Assembly: GCA_030728245.1 (NCBI GenBank)
Contig: JANQZX010000124.1
Location: 20,438-62,421 of the forward strand
Length of the DNA stretch: 41,984 nt
Origin: Saprospiraceae bacterium
GTDB taxonomy: Bacteria > Bacteroidota > Bacteroidia > Chitinophagales > Saprospiraceae
Direction: 5' to 3'
A program made the translations under genes and the position numbers. Of the stretch, positions 38,048-41,984 are shown piece after piece. Under the pieces are notes generated by a model. The model had not been told where the DNA came from. It worked only from the letters and a program-made list of their open reading frames with translations, and ran no database searches. Numbering within the stretch: position 1 is the first letter of the stretch; each line of letters begins with the position of its first letter.

Positions 38048-39373
38048 ATGGAAATAAATAATAAAATAAAAGAAGTACTGGGAAATCTCAATATTTCTGC
38101 GCTAAATGAAATGCAGGAAGAAGCATTTCAGGCAATAAAAGAGGAATCAGAGGTTATTTTATTGGCACCAACAGGTTCTGGCAAGTCACTGGCTTTCCTT
38201 TTGCCCGTTTTTGAACTTATAGATGCGAATAATAAGGATGTTCAAATCTTAGTCCTTACCCCAACCAGAGAATTGGCTATACAGTTGGAACAGGTTTGGC
38301 AAAAAATGAAAACGGGATACAAAGTTAATACCTGCTACGGAGGTCATACAATGTCCGTTGAAATTCAAAATCTATCCCAGCCTCCTGCCATTATTATCGG
38401 TACGCCAGGTAGAATACTGGACCATCTGGGTAGGAGGTCATTTGATCAAAGAAAGGTTAAAATTTTAATCTTAGACGAGTTCGATAAGTCTTTAGCCATG
38501 GGTTTTCAAAACCAAATGGCACACATTATAAAAACGCTCACGGGCTTAAAAAAGAGGGTGCTTGTCTCTGCAACACAAAAATTGCAAATTCCTCCCTTTG
38601 TGGGCATAACTACTCCTGTAACTTTGCTTTTTTCAACGATTGGCGAAAAAACAACAGAAGGGTTAAATCTTAAGGTCATTTATGGCGAAACTGACGATAA
38701 ACTGAACCTTTTGTTTGATTTACTTTGCTACCTGGGGTCCTCTCCCACGATTATCTTTTGTAACCTGAGGGGAACTACCGAGGATGTTAGCGCAAGGTTG
38801 GCCGAAAAGGGAATAGTTAGTGCTTGTTTTCATGGAGGTATGACCCAGACAGATAGGGAAAAAACCTTGATTTCCTTCAGAAATGGCAGTCTTATTTTTC
38901 TCGTCTCTTCTGATCTAGCCGCCAGAGGTTTGGATATTCCCGAGGTGAAAAATATCATTCATTTTGAAATACCATCAAAAAATACGGACTTTATTCACCG
39001 GAATGGTCGAACAGCAAGAATGCATGCGGAAGGTAATGCCTTTCTTTTAATAGGTAAAAATGAAAGGTTGCCTGTATATTTATCAGAGCCTCCCGAAACA
39101 TTTGAGATTCCAATCGTTGACTCTCTTCCTGACGAATCACCCTGGATTACTTTATATATTAGTGGAGGTAAAAAAGATAAAATTAGTAAAACAGACATTG
39201 TTGGTTTCTTAGTAAAAAAGGGTGAGCTGGAATTACATGAAATTGGTAAAATTGAAGGCATGGATTTTATGTCATTCGTTGCCGTCCATCGAAATAAAGT
39301 GGAGAAGTTGTTGCTAAAAGTAAAAGACGAGAAATTGAAGGGTAAAAAATATCAGATTAGATTGGCAAGATAA
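38048..39373 (+). CDS. DEAD-box RNA helicase with DbpA-like C-terminal RNA-binding domain
   Basis: A 441-residue ATP-dependent RNA helicase. Motifs in order: Q-motif region, APTGSGKS (40-47, motif I), PTRELA (Ia), TPGR (Ib), LDEFD (motif II, Phe in place of Ala of DEAD), SAT (174-176, III), IIFCN (IV), SSDLAARGLD (V), HRNGRTAR (about 317-324, VI). The last about 75 residues (LYISGGKKDKI...IGKIEGMDFMSFVAVHR...IRLAR) match the DbpA RNA-binding fold that in E. coli recognises 23S rRNA helix 92, so a role in large-subunit assembly is likely. The next gene begins 10 nt later on the same strand, so co-transcription is possible. Confidence 0.92.
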   Translation: MEINNKIKEVLGNLNISALNEMQEEAFQAIKEESEVILLAPTGSGKSLAFLLPVFELIDANNKDVQILVLTPTRELAIQLEQVWQKMKTGYKVNTCYGGHTMSVEIQNLSQPPAIIIGTPGRILDHLGRRSFDQRKVKILILDEFDKSLAMGFQNQMAHIIKTLTGLKKRVLVSATQKLQIPPFVGITTPVTLLFSTIGEKTTEGLNLKVIYGETDDKLNLLFDLLCYLGSSPTIIFCNLRGTTEDVSARLAEKGIVSACFHGGMTQTDREKTLISFRNGSLIFLVSSDLAARGLDIPEVKNIIHFEIPSKNTDFIHRNGRTARMHAEGNAFLLIGKNERLPVYLSEPPETFEIPIVDSLPDESPWITLYISGGKKDKISKTDIVGFLVKKGELELHEIGKIEGMDFMSFVAVHRNKVEKLLLKVKDEKLKGKKYQIRLAR

Positions 39374-39383
39374 ATTATTGATA

Positions 39384-40937
39384 ATGTATAGGTTATGTAT
39401 ATTCCTCGTGTTATTGGGTATAAATATACCTTTATTTGGAAGGGATACAACGCTTTACAAAATAGTAACATCGACAAAGCCAATTAGAAGTCTGACAAAA
39501 TTAAATGGTAATATCGTTGTTACCCGCTATGACGGTGTGTTTGAATTTGATGGTGAAAATTTCTTTAAAACAAGTATTAATAAGGAAAAGGTAAAGGTTA
39601 CAAGTAATCCAAACGAAAATTGGGCAAAATTAGTCAATCCAAAGTTAGATTATGCTCAGGTGGAACTTTCAAATGAGGGCATTTACTGGGTACTGATTAA
39701 AAATAGATTTATTTATGGGTTTAAAATAGCAGATAAATTAAAAAAATCACTGCCTAATCTGGCTATTAGAGGTATATACGCAAACAACCATTCCCTTCTC
39801 GTTTCCACATATAAAGGCTTTTATTTGAATCAAAAGCCAGTATTTTCTGAAACCCTTGTTTTTTCAAATAGTAATATCATTGAAAATAAGGGGCATTTTT
39901 ATTTTGTGGCTAATGGCGAAATGATCTTTAAAATGAGCGTGGATGGGTCTGAACTTGAAAAAATAATAGATCGTAGTAAATTAGAGAAGATTAATAACGC
40001 AGCTGTGATTATTTTCTATAAGGGAATACTCTATATAGGAGGTGAAAAAGGATTGGCTTTATATGATAAATATAAAAAAATCCAAATTCTTAAGGAAGGA
40101 TTGGAAATTCATAATATGACTATTATTAAGGATAAACTTTGGATATCAGCCAGTGACGGCGTGTATATGCTTGAAAATAAAAACCTTAATAAGGTTTTTA
40201 AAATCAATAATAGTACAGGTGTTTTTAAGTTAGATGATTTGATTGTTTCTTCCAGCTTCGAAGGACTATGGACCTATGATATCAAAAAAAACAGATTAAA
40301 AAATGTCCTAGTAGGTTCTCCTTATGAGAAAATAGAGACGGATGCTTTTTATGAGGATGATTACGGTAATTTTTGGATAAGTACTATCAATGGAATTATT
40401 AGATACCAAAGAGATAATAAAAATATTTCTACCTTTTTGGAAGGAACTGAATTCAATAGGAGGTCCTATTTTTTTAAAGGGGATACCATCTACCTTGGAA
40501 GTAATGGAAATGGATTAATCAGTTTCGATATTAAGGAATTGATTGCTGAAGATGGAATTAATGCTCCAATAAAAGAAAATTTCATGTTTTTTTACCTGGC
40601 CACCGTCATTTTTATGGTTGGTTTATCCGTTGTATTTTTTTTGAAATTTAAATTAACCCCGGTAAATATAATAGTTGATCCTCCGGAAGAGGAAGTGGAA
40701 ACGGATGAAAATATATTCTTTGCATCCCTGGAAAATTATATCAGAGACCATATAGATGAGGTTAATGTCGATAAAATCAGATACCAGTCTGGTTTGACGA
40801 AATATGCTTTTTACACAAAATTTGTGGATCACTTTGGAAAAAAACCCAAGGAATATCTATCCGATATAAAGGAAAAAATTCTGCAAGAACGCCAAAATGA
40901 GTTATTTAGGAAAAGAAATTCGTTGGAAGAAATATAA
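39384..40937 (+). CDS. Membrane-spanning propeller sensor with cytoplasmic half-AraC HTH domain
   Basis: A 517-residue protein from the ATG at 39384 (TTG at 39378 is an alternative two codons earlier). Signal sequence about 1-20; then about 380 periplasmic residues of short beta repeats with propeller character (YDGVFEFDGENF, SFEGLWTYDI, and the clear Reg_prop-type repeat DDYGNFWISTINGIIRY at about 325-341); one transmembrane helix (401-420); and a cytoplasmic tail. The tail (about 443-505) matches only the first helix-turn-helix of an AraC-type DNA-binding domain: FFASLENYIRDHI, YAFYTKFVDHFGKKPKEYL. The second HTH is absent and no kinase or receiver domain is present. Inferred: a one-component transmembrane regulator or a degraded hybrid-sensor relative; ligand unknown. 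It is 32 nt ahead of a paralogue. Confidence 0.75.
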   Translation: MYRLCIFLVLLGINIPLFGRDTTLYKIVTSTKPIRSLTKLNGNIVVTRYDGVFEFDGENFFKTSINKEKVKVTSNPNENWAKLVNPKLDYAQVELSNEGIYWVLIKNRFIYGFKIADKLKKSLPNLAIRGIYANNHSLLVSTYKGFYLNQKPVFSETLVFSNSNIIENKGHFYFVANGEMIFKMSVDGSELEKIIDRSKLEKINNAAVIIFYKGILYIGGEKGLALYDKYKKIQILKEGLEIHNMTIIKDKLWISASDGVYMLENKNLNKVFKINNSTGVFKLDDLIVSSSFEGLWTYDIKKNRLKNVLVGSPYEKIETDAFYEDDYGNFWISTINGIIRYQRDNKNISTFLEGTEFNRRSYFFKGDTIYLGSNGNGLISFDIKELIAEDGINAPIKENFMFFYLATVIFMVGLSVVFFLKFKLTPVNIIVDPPEEEVETDENIFFASLENYIRDHIDEVNVDKIRYQSGLTKYAFYTKFVDHFGKKPKEYLSDIKEKILQERQNELFRKRNSLEEI

Positions 40938-40969
40938 GAATTGATTAATTTTGTTCCAATACATCCAAA

Positions 40970-41984
40970 ATGACCAAATATCTAACATTTTTTGTATGCT
41001 TTTTTCACCTAATCACTTTATCAGGAAGAGATACTACGCTTTTTAAAATCATTACTTCCCCTACGCCCATTAGGCACATGACCAATATTGATGGGAAAAT
41101 TATTTTGGCACGTTATGATGGAATTTTTGAATTTGATGGCGAAAATTTTAAAGAATCCAATTACGAATACAAAGATTTATCCGCATCCCTTGAAAAAAAT
41201 GAGCAATGGGCCAAATTGGCAGACCCTAAAATGGATTTTGCTCAAGTTCAGTTGTCCAGTGATGGTATTTATTGGGTTCTTATCAGAAATAAGTTTTTGT
41301 ATGGTTTTCGAATTATAGAAAAAATTAAAAGAATGCTCCCGGAATATTCCATGCGGGGTATTTATGTTTCAGGGGACTCTGCTTATGTAGCCACTTATAA
41401 TGGCTTCTATTTAGGAAATAAACAAATATATAAGGACACGCTCTTTTTTTCAAATTCTAATTTTTGGATAGATAAGGAATACATTTATTTCTCGGCAAAT
41501 TATGAAGATCATGTTTATCGTGTCGATAAAGAATTTTCAAATTTGAAAATAATAATGCAGGGGGAGCTAAAAGATAAATTTATTAAGAACATCTCCAGTG
41601 TCTCCATTTTTAATGGGGACTTGTATGTTGGGGGACAGAGTGGTTTTGGAAGGTTTAATGAAAAATCTGGTTTTGAATTAATCGATAAAAATGTGGTGGT
41701 ATCGAATATTCATATTATTAAAGGTAAGTTATGGTTGGCCTGCGTGGATGGGATTTATGTGTTGGAGGGTAAAAAATTAGTCAGGAAATTCAATGAAAGT
41801 AGCACTGGTCTTTTTCCTGTAGGCGATAAATTGTTTTCAACCGGTTTTGAAGGACTTTGGGAATATAATATGAACGCCAATAAACAAACCAATATTTTTA
41901 AGGGAACCGTTTATGAGGATATTGAAACCGATGCCCTTTACGCTGATCTGTTTGGGAATTATTGGATAAGTACCATTGATGGAA
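40970..41984 (+). CDS. Second propeller sensor, tandem paralogue (3' end outside window)
   Basis: The frame opens at the ATG at 40970 (MTKYLTFFVC) and stays open to the right edge, 338 full codons. A signal peptide (about 1-19) precedes RDTTLFKI. By hand alignment the first 41 mature residues share 27 identities with the preceding protein (RDTTL, PIR, RYDG, FEFDGENF), and similarity continues throughout: DGIYWVLI, RGIY, FSNSN, GFEGLW, IETDA, GNYWISTIDG. The last of these is a Reg_prop-type repeat just at the edge. The transmembrane and DNA-binding parts, if present, lie outside the window. It probably shares a transcript with the first copy. A 76-codon frame at 41088-41318 inside it is a shadow. 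Confidence 0.85.
   Translation, partial: MTKYLTFFVCFFHLITLSGRDTTLFKIITSPTPIRHMTNIDGKIILARYDGIFEFDGENFKESNYEYKDLSASLEKNEQWAKLADPKMDFAQVQLSSDGIYWVLIRNKFLYGFRIIEKIKRMLPEYSMRGIYVSGDSAYVATYNGFYLGNKQIYKDTLFFSNSNFWIDKEYIYFSANYEDHVYRVDKEFSNLKIIMQGELKDKFIKNISSVSIFNGDLYVGGQSGFGRFNEKSGFELIDKNVVVSNIHIIKGKLWLACVDGIYVLEGKKLVRKFNESSTGLFPVGDKLFSTGFEGLWEYNMNANKQTNIFKGTVYEDIETDALYADLFGNYWISTIDG

Follow-up and report, generated by a model that had tools for sequence, protein, structure and literature searches.

Hybrid two-component systems (HTCS) are a main class of glycan-sensing receptors in the Bacteroidota and have been described as acting via a full phosphorelay. Their sensors contain two 7-bladed propellers (PMC3243724). 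A kinase-less layout is known from the SusR-like regulators of Bacteroides, membrane proteins that join a periplasmic sensor to a cytoplasmic helix-turn-helix (HTH), and the DNA-binding domain of SusR was reported to be without significant similarity to other known ones (PMC3878776). The ToxR/CadC membrane transcription factors and the VtrA/VtrC co-component systems follow the same logic, with a periplasmic sensor, one transmembrane (TM) helix, a cytoplasmic HTH and an adjacent partner gene (PMC9214523). A pair of tandem genes is described here that is real and conserved, its parts ordinary and their combination unusual.

Like HTCS such as BT4663, the proteins of the pair are membrane-spanning single polypeptides with a sensor of the HTCS propeller family, the EFN..S signature and a C-terminal AraC-type output, but only the first half of that output is there (it is complete in sister paralogues), one propeller of about 370 aa stands in place of two 7-bladed ones, Y_Y_Y, HisKA/HATPase and receiver are missing and no polysaccharide-utilisation locus lies beside the pair. 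Because kinase, receiver and Y_Y_Y were tested and are absent, the proteins are, as judged from their predicted domains, not HTCS. Like the SusR-like regulators, as these are described, they are kinase-less membrane proteins with a periplasmic sensor and a predicted cytoplasmic HTH, laid out here as a signal peptide, a propeller, a single TM helix and the HTH. SusR genes control genes for starch or other glycans, whereas the locus of the pair has no link to SusC/SusD, though the pair may regulate glycan genes located elsewhere. The first HTH and the long helix that follows it are shared with the AraC/XylS family (MarA, HTCS output domains), whose members have two HTHs joined by a linker helix, whereas the pair is without the second HTH and its sensor is membrane-tethered, not soluble. 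ToxR/CadC and VtrA/VtrC differ in the types of HTH and sensor and in having the HTH N-terminal, so that the order is reversed. Similar in plan are propeller-Y_Y_Y-LuxR/GerE-type proteins, which are also kinase-less exported propeller sensors with a C-terminal HTH, but which are longer (925-964 aa), keep Y_Y_Y and have a LuxR-like HTH instead of AraC. The same genome holds two propeller-Y_Y_Y proteins (G000:C80, 925 aa with a LuxR-like HTH, and G000:C53, 964 aa and similar), and kinase-less propeller regulators as such are therefore a known kind. In the literature covered, from which subscription papers were mostly absent, no description of a propeller-TM-AraC one-component protein was found and, as far as found, what is new is the link to AraC without Y_Y_Y together with the halved output. 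Retention of an HTCS sensor and half the output, with the middle dropped, suggests that this class of sensor can signal straight through one membrane helix.

A side observation concerns an HTCS of this genome (G000:C57, L078:966-5061), which is present as two overlapping ORFs of 982 and 424 aa with the kinase split between them, the alternatives being a frameshift or an assembly error.

The locus and its neighbourhood

The window (the whole stretch of DNA that was analysed, 41,984 nt) holds the first gene of the pair entire and most of the second (Table 1). An earlier note on this DNA had described two adjacent paralogues 32 nt apart with 27 of 41 residues identical at the mature N-terminus; the coordinates (40937 and 40970) confirm the spacing, and the alignment gives exactly that identity over residues 20-60. 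A TTG at 39378 is an alternative possible start of copy 1. Orthologues of copy 1 are 83-90% identical and their context is conserved, and an invariant DT stands straight after the signal peptide across the family.

Table 1. Positions of the pair, of the parts of copy 1 and of the preceding gene in the window
Feature	Position	Strand	Description	Basis
DbpA-type DEAD-box RNA helicase	38048..39373	+		PF00270 E 2.8e-40, PF03880 (DbpA) E 2.7e-20
Copy 1	39384..40937	+	517-aa kinase-less propeller-TM-HTH protein	ORF and translation, orthologues
Signal peptide, copy 1	39384..39443	+	Residues 1-20 (MYRLCIFLVLLGINIPLFG/RDT)	Hydropathy peak, residues 1-19
Periplasmic beta-propeller, copy 1 (predicted)	39444..40553	+	Residues 21-390	Family profile, self-HHalign repeats, AF2, VIA-align
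Single TM helix, copy 1	40581..40646	+	Residues 400-421	Hydropathy 398-431 (peak 2.48), AF2 helix 400-421
Cytoplasmic half-AraC domain, copy 1 (predicted)	40707..40934	+	First HTH and long helix	Alignment with full AraC paralogues, profile, AF2
Inter-copy gap	40938..40969	+	32 nt	ORF coordinates
Copy 2, first 338 codons	40970..41984	+	Signal peptide and most of the propeller	ORF; the window ends inside it

The helicase stop codon lies 10 nt 5' of the ATG of copy 1 and, since the order and spacing of helicase, copy 1 and copy 2 are kept in L004-L007 and L009, the three look like one operon, probably with the dbpA-type helicase as its first gene. The gap between the copies is 32-43 nt across the orthologous loci of the genus, and the pair that the earlier note proposed to look for in related genomes is thus present there in conserved order. 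The neighbours of the pair are the helicase, fasciclin, SbcCD and an SRPBCC-like gene. Neither SusC/SusD nor glycoside hydrolase nor other sugar-utilisation genes were found in the stretches read at the locus, and a polysaccharide-utilisation context was accordingly set aside. Searches for an occurrence of the pair on plasmids and for an RNA element within the locus found none. The region upstream of dbpA is conserved in five genomes; no repeat stood out in it as a shared DNA site, and no binding site is claimed.

The contig (G000:C124, 63,876 bp) runs 1,455 bases past the window and completes copy 2. Exactly 100 N follow the window directly (L003:5423-5522), and this gap is a scaffolding or assembly artefact because its two flanks share an exact overlap of 55 bp. 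Beyond it lies the rest of copy 2 (G000:C124:62522-63094, ending at L003:6095), which carries the TM helix and the same C-terminal HTH, as does an intact orthologue of copy 2 (L006:7588-9120, 511 aa). A terminator-like hairpin (L003:6317-6345) and then the unrelated SRPBCC-like gene follow. The idea that the array might go on beyond the right edge was not upheld: the end of the contig holds the rest of copy 2 only and extension to the right gives two copies in all, which rules out a longer tandem array.

Assemblies were also seen to break within the stretch from copy 1 to copy 2, or at the end of the preceding helicase, in six of the seven genomes of the genus (at 41984 with L003:5423-5522, and in L004, L005, L007, L008, L009 and L083), for which P is about 1e-4 by contig density, calculated post hoc. 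This may reflect strain-level variation at the locus.

Sensor and output domains

Full-length members of the family begin with a hydrophobic stretch or a predicted signal peptide, followed by a propeller of ~370-400 residues, a single TM helix and a short domain in the cytoplasm. The family profile matches the sensor of the HTCS BT4663 (4a2l) with E 2.8e-31 and other solved HTCS sensors with E 2e-18 (BT4673) and E 8e-17 (BT3049), and self-HHalign detects internal repeats in it at 98% probability. In the AF2 model of copy 1, which is of moderate confidence (mean pLDDT 63, 12-row alignment) and unreliable over residues 21-125, consecutive four-stranded blades occupy residues 128-382 (pLDDT mostly 65-93, <60 in the last blade) and lie ahead of a TM helix (400-421) and of four helices at the C-terminus. 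The best Foldseek match of this model is 4a2m (E 2.7e-14), and VIA-align superposes it on BT4663, the closest solved fold, with Z 24.4 (275 aligned, rmsd 2.8); a model of copy 2, built on its intact orthologue, agrees with this and has the same best match. The signature at the end of the propeller, EFNxRS...YxGSxxGLxSF, aligns with the HTCS of the same genome. Propeller-type repeats akin to the sensor part of HTCS, claimed in the earlier note, are thus supported by profile and structure prediction, though the Reg_prop family of Pfam matches copy 1 only at E 0.023, below the cut-off; the structure prediction called for in that note did not turn out without a propeller fold, the outcome named there as fatal to the claim. 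By relationship the predicted sensor belongs with the HTCS sensors. Nine repeat-like motifs can be counted in copy 1 by eye, whereas in the AF2 model its core (111-387) can be laid over 7-bladed folds and 8-bladed designs also match; with residues 21-125 poorly modelled, these readings give a propeller of 7 to 9 blades.

Domain searches of copy 1 and of 20 family members found neither a HisKA + HATPase_c kinase nor a receiver domain, for which the model leaves no room between TM helix and HTH, and Y_Y_Y was absent from all 20. Only ~10-20 residues separate the last blade from the TM helix. The complete copy is therefore without a kinase, as had been proposed.

The C-terminus of copy 1 consists of the three helices of a first HTH (442-455, 462-469 and 473-484) and a long helix (488-516), with no second HTH in either the AF2 model or the alignment. 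Across the family this part aligns with the first AraC HTH and the long helix that follows it, then ends. It matches the AraC domain of an HTCS (12aw) with E 1.4e-5, or E 6.8e-4 for the half domain alone. Pfam HTH_AraC sees the half domain weakly in copy 2 (E 0.009-0.13) and gives no match on the C-terminus of copy 1; a full-length paralogue of the same genome matches HTH_18 with E 3.8e-6. The distinctive feature lies in this part, for which the earlier note had only listed an HTH_18 search: an AraC-type HTH is there, but only the first half of the domain. With a halved AraC domain on the cytoplasmic side, the copies are predicted transcription factors, beyond mere sensors. A TetR-like C-terminus (MtrR, E 0.06) was set aside, the AraC matches and the full-length sister proteins being stronger.

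Distribution and history of the family

A profile search of seven genomes of the genus returned only kinase-less ORFs of ~520-610 aa from stop to stop, the intact family ORFs being about 510-590 aa; the other matches were pieces cut by contig ends or disrupted, and the next one was an unrelated ORF of 977 aa (E 8e-11). Full-length homologues with a kinase, which would have made the two genes fragments, were thus searched for in the genus without any being found, so that an origin as fragments of kinase-bearing genes is ruled out there; nor was a kinase found in any close relative. Purifying selection acts on both copies (dN/dS 0.18-0.31 in copy 1, 0.12-0.26 in copy 2), and the synonymous divergence between them is saturated, which indicates that the duplication is old and that the copies have long been retained.

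Outside the genus, where the wide searches scored 3-4 candidates per genome and prevalence is a lower bound, the full architecture was found in at least two other genomes of a phylum sample (G158 and G442; 395 genomes, E 1e-25) and in at least three of an order sample (G018, G158 and G305; 299 genomes). These four represent four other genera, and all have both HTHs, as do paralogues in the same genomes as the pair (e.g. G000:C1, 571 aa). The halved proteins all fall into a single clade (98/97) that excludes the full-domain proteins, and the halved form is kept in at least three paralogue groups and also occurs as single genes (G001:C9, G002:C92, G003:C43, G005:C87 and G005:C120). Since the tree was rooted at its midpoint and contains long branches, the direction of change rests on the full domain being present in all four outside genera. 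No remnant of the second HTH was found downstream in another frame. Taken together, the single halved clade, the full domain in the outside genera and the lack of a remnant suggest that the second HTH was most likely lost once, before the tandem duplication. The best reading of the domain comparisons is that the family derives from HTCS that would have lost the phosphorelay and then half of the AraC domain. The series from HTCS through a one-component protein with full AraC domain to the half-AraC form would be a testable path for the collapse of a two-component system to one component, and its last member raises the question whether DNA can be read with a single AraC HTH in each subunit.

Three further features of the family were noted. 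A second, independent tandem pair is present at L039:5246-8977 (G001:C3), with full AraC domains and 61% identity in the sensor and 68% in the HTH. In G005, an insertion sequence carrying a DDE transposase (PF01609) splits copy 1 (L009:6687-6805 and L008:1-475); its terminal inverted repeats match (CTAAAGTTTCGGAG) and 7 bp of the target, TAATCAA, are duplicated, and copy 1 can therefore be lost. In a full-AraC paralogue (L037:5633-7069, G000:C128) an in-frame TAA falls where the first HTH begins, a point at which the orthologue (L038:4575-6287) is open; the paralogue is a pseudogene, a strain variant or the product of an assembly error.

Possible modes of action

The two copies are probably membrane-bound one-component transcription regulators, each predicted to combine an HTCS-type propeller, one TM helix and a half-AraC HTH. 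Each protein would be exported so that the propeller lies in the periplasm and the HTH in the cytoplasm; binding of a periplasmic ligand, or contact between propellers, would alter the dimeric state of the single-span protein so that two HTH units meet in the cytoplasm. Two such single HTHs could then replace one two-HTH AraC domain in binding DNA, and transcription would change without a phosphorelay. DNA binding, action as a dimer and separate signals with shared DNA sites are all inferred.

Divergence between the copies is uneven. Over the 336 aligned residues within the window they are 44% identical; in G002, the values are 46% for the propeller, 68% for the HTH, 31% for the TM helix and 26% for the linker, with the recognition helix KYAFYTKF identical in both. 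At 76 of 370 propeller positions the copies are fixed differently, and 28 of 57 HTH positions, recognition helix included, are invariant across both. The view that these are exported proteins with diverged sensor parts agrees with the signal peptides and with the propeller identity. As a sign of two sensors acting on shared DNA sites the contrast of 68% against 46% is suggestive and no more, being only partly specific to the pair because most other paralogue pairs tested in the family also conserve the HTH more than the sensor (e.g. 37% to 51%, 47% to 63%). Different ligands for the two copies would fit this pattern, which makes plausible either a heterodimer or two inputs that converge on the same DNA sites.

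A heterodimer would make copies 1 and 2 one receptor, in which the propellers pair and the two half-AraC HTHs rebuild a bipartite AraC-like DNA reader, by analogy with the co-component systems VtrA/VtrC or ToxR/ToxS. We regard this as unlikely, if the strongest of the alternatives. The conserved adjacency and spacing in the genus and the shared recognition helix point towards it, both copies have retained the same half, so that a dimer supplies two HTHs, and sensor heterodimers from adjacent genes have precedent (PMC9214523). However, both copies carry the first HTH and neither the second, copy 2 stays open in G005 although copy 1 is broken there, and the architecture does not require a heterodimer because halved relatives occur as single genes, where homodimers must suffice if they act in the same mode. 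The fuller version, a split DNA-reading receptor pair of HTCS lineage that shed first the phosphorelay and then half of its AraC domain and whose two tandem copies, with different sensor propellers, dimerise in the membrane to rebuild an AraC-like reader, appears somewhat less likely still; if true, two periplasmic signals would have to be rightly combined before a promoter responds.

About as improbable as that version is a helical domain that no longer binds DNA, serving instead for protein-protein output, or a propeller that has a structural role in the envelope, its tail being anchored. Such a role would suit a mere half of an AraC domain with its weak recognition by Pfam, and the family profile also matches the T9SS component PorZ (5m11, E 7e-4). 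Against it, no part is better conserved between the copies than the HTH, recognition helix included, the C-terminal tails contain many basic residues and a complete AraC domain is kept in the sister clade. That the proteins are decayed HTCS, remnants without kinase and half the output domain on the way to loss, is very improbable and already largely refuted: homology to HTCS at both ends, the in-frame stop in the G000:C128 paralogue and the interrupted copy 1 of G005 speak for decay, but the family is kinase-less across the seven genomes and four further genera, is under purifying selection and, by its saturated synonymous divergence, has long been retained.

A gene with a Fibrobacter succinogenes major domain (PF09603) is frequently present within 2 kb of single-copy relatives, though not of the tandem pair. 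This holds at eight of 13 loci (L038, L039, L040, L041, L044, L045, L046 and L048), against about 4% each from gene density (P about 4e-9 on the assumption of independence); counted by orthologue group the figure is three of six (P about 1e-3). Both full-AraC and half-AraC members are among these neighbours. AraC regulators of another type (L079 and L080; G000:C156 and G000:C91), about 360-400 aa long and, to judge from the N-terminal sequence, apparently multi-pass membrane proteins, likewise adjoin Fib_succ_major genes.
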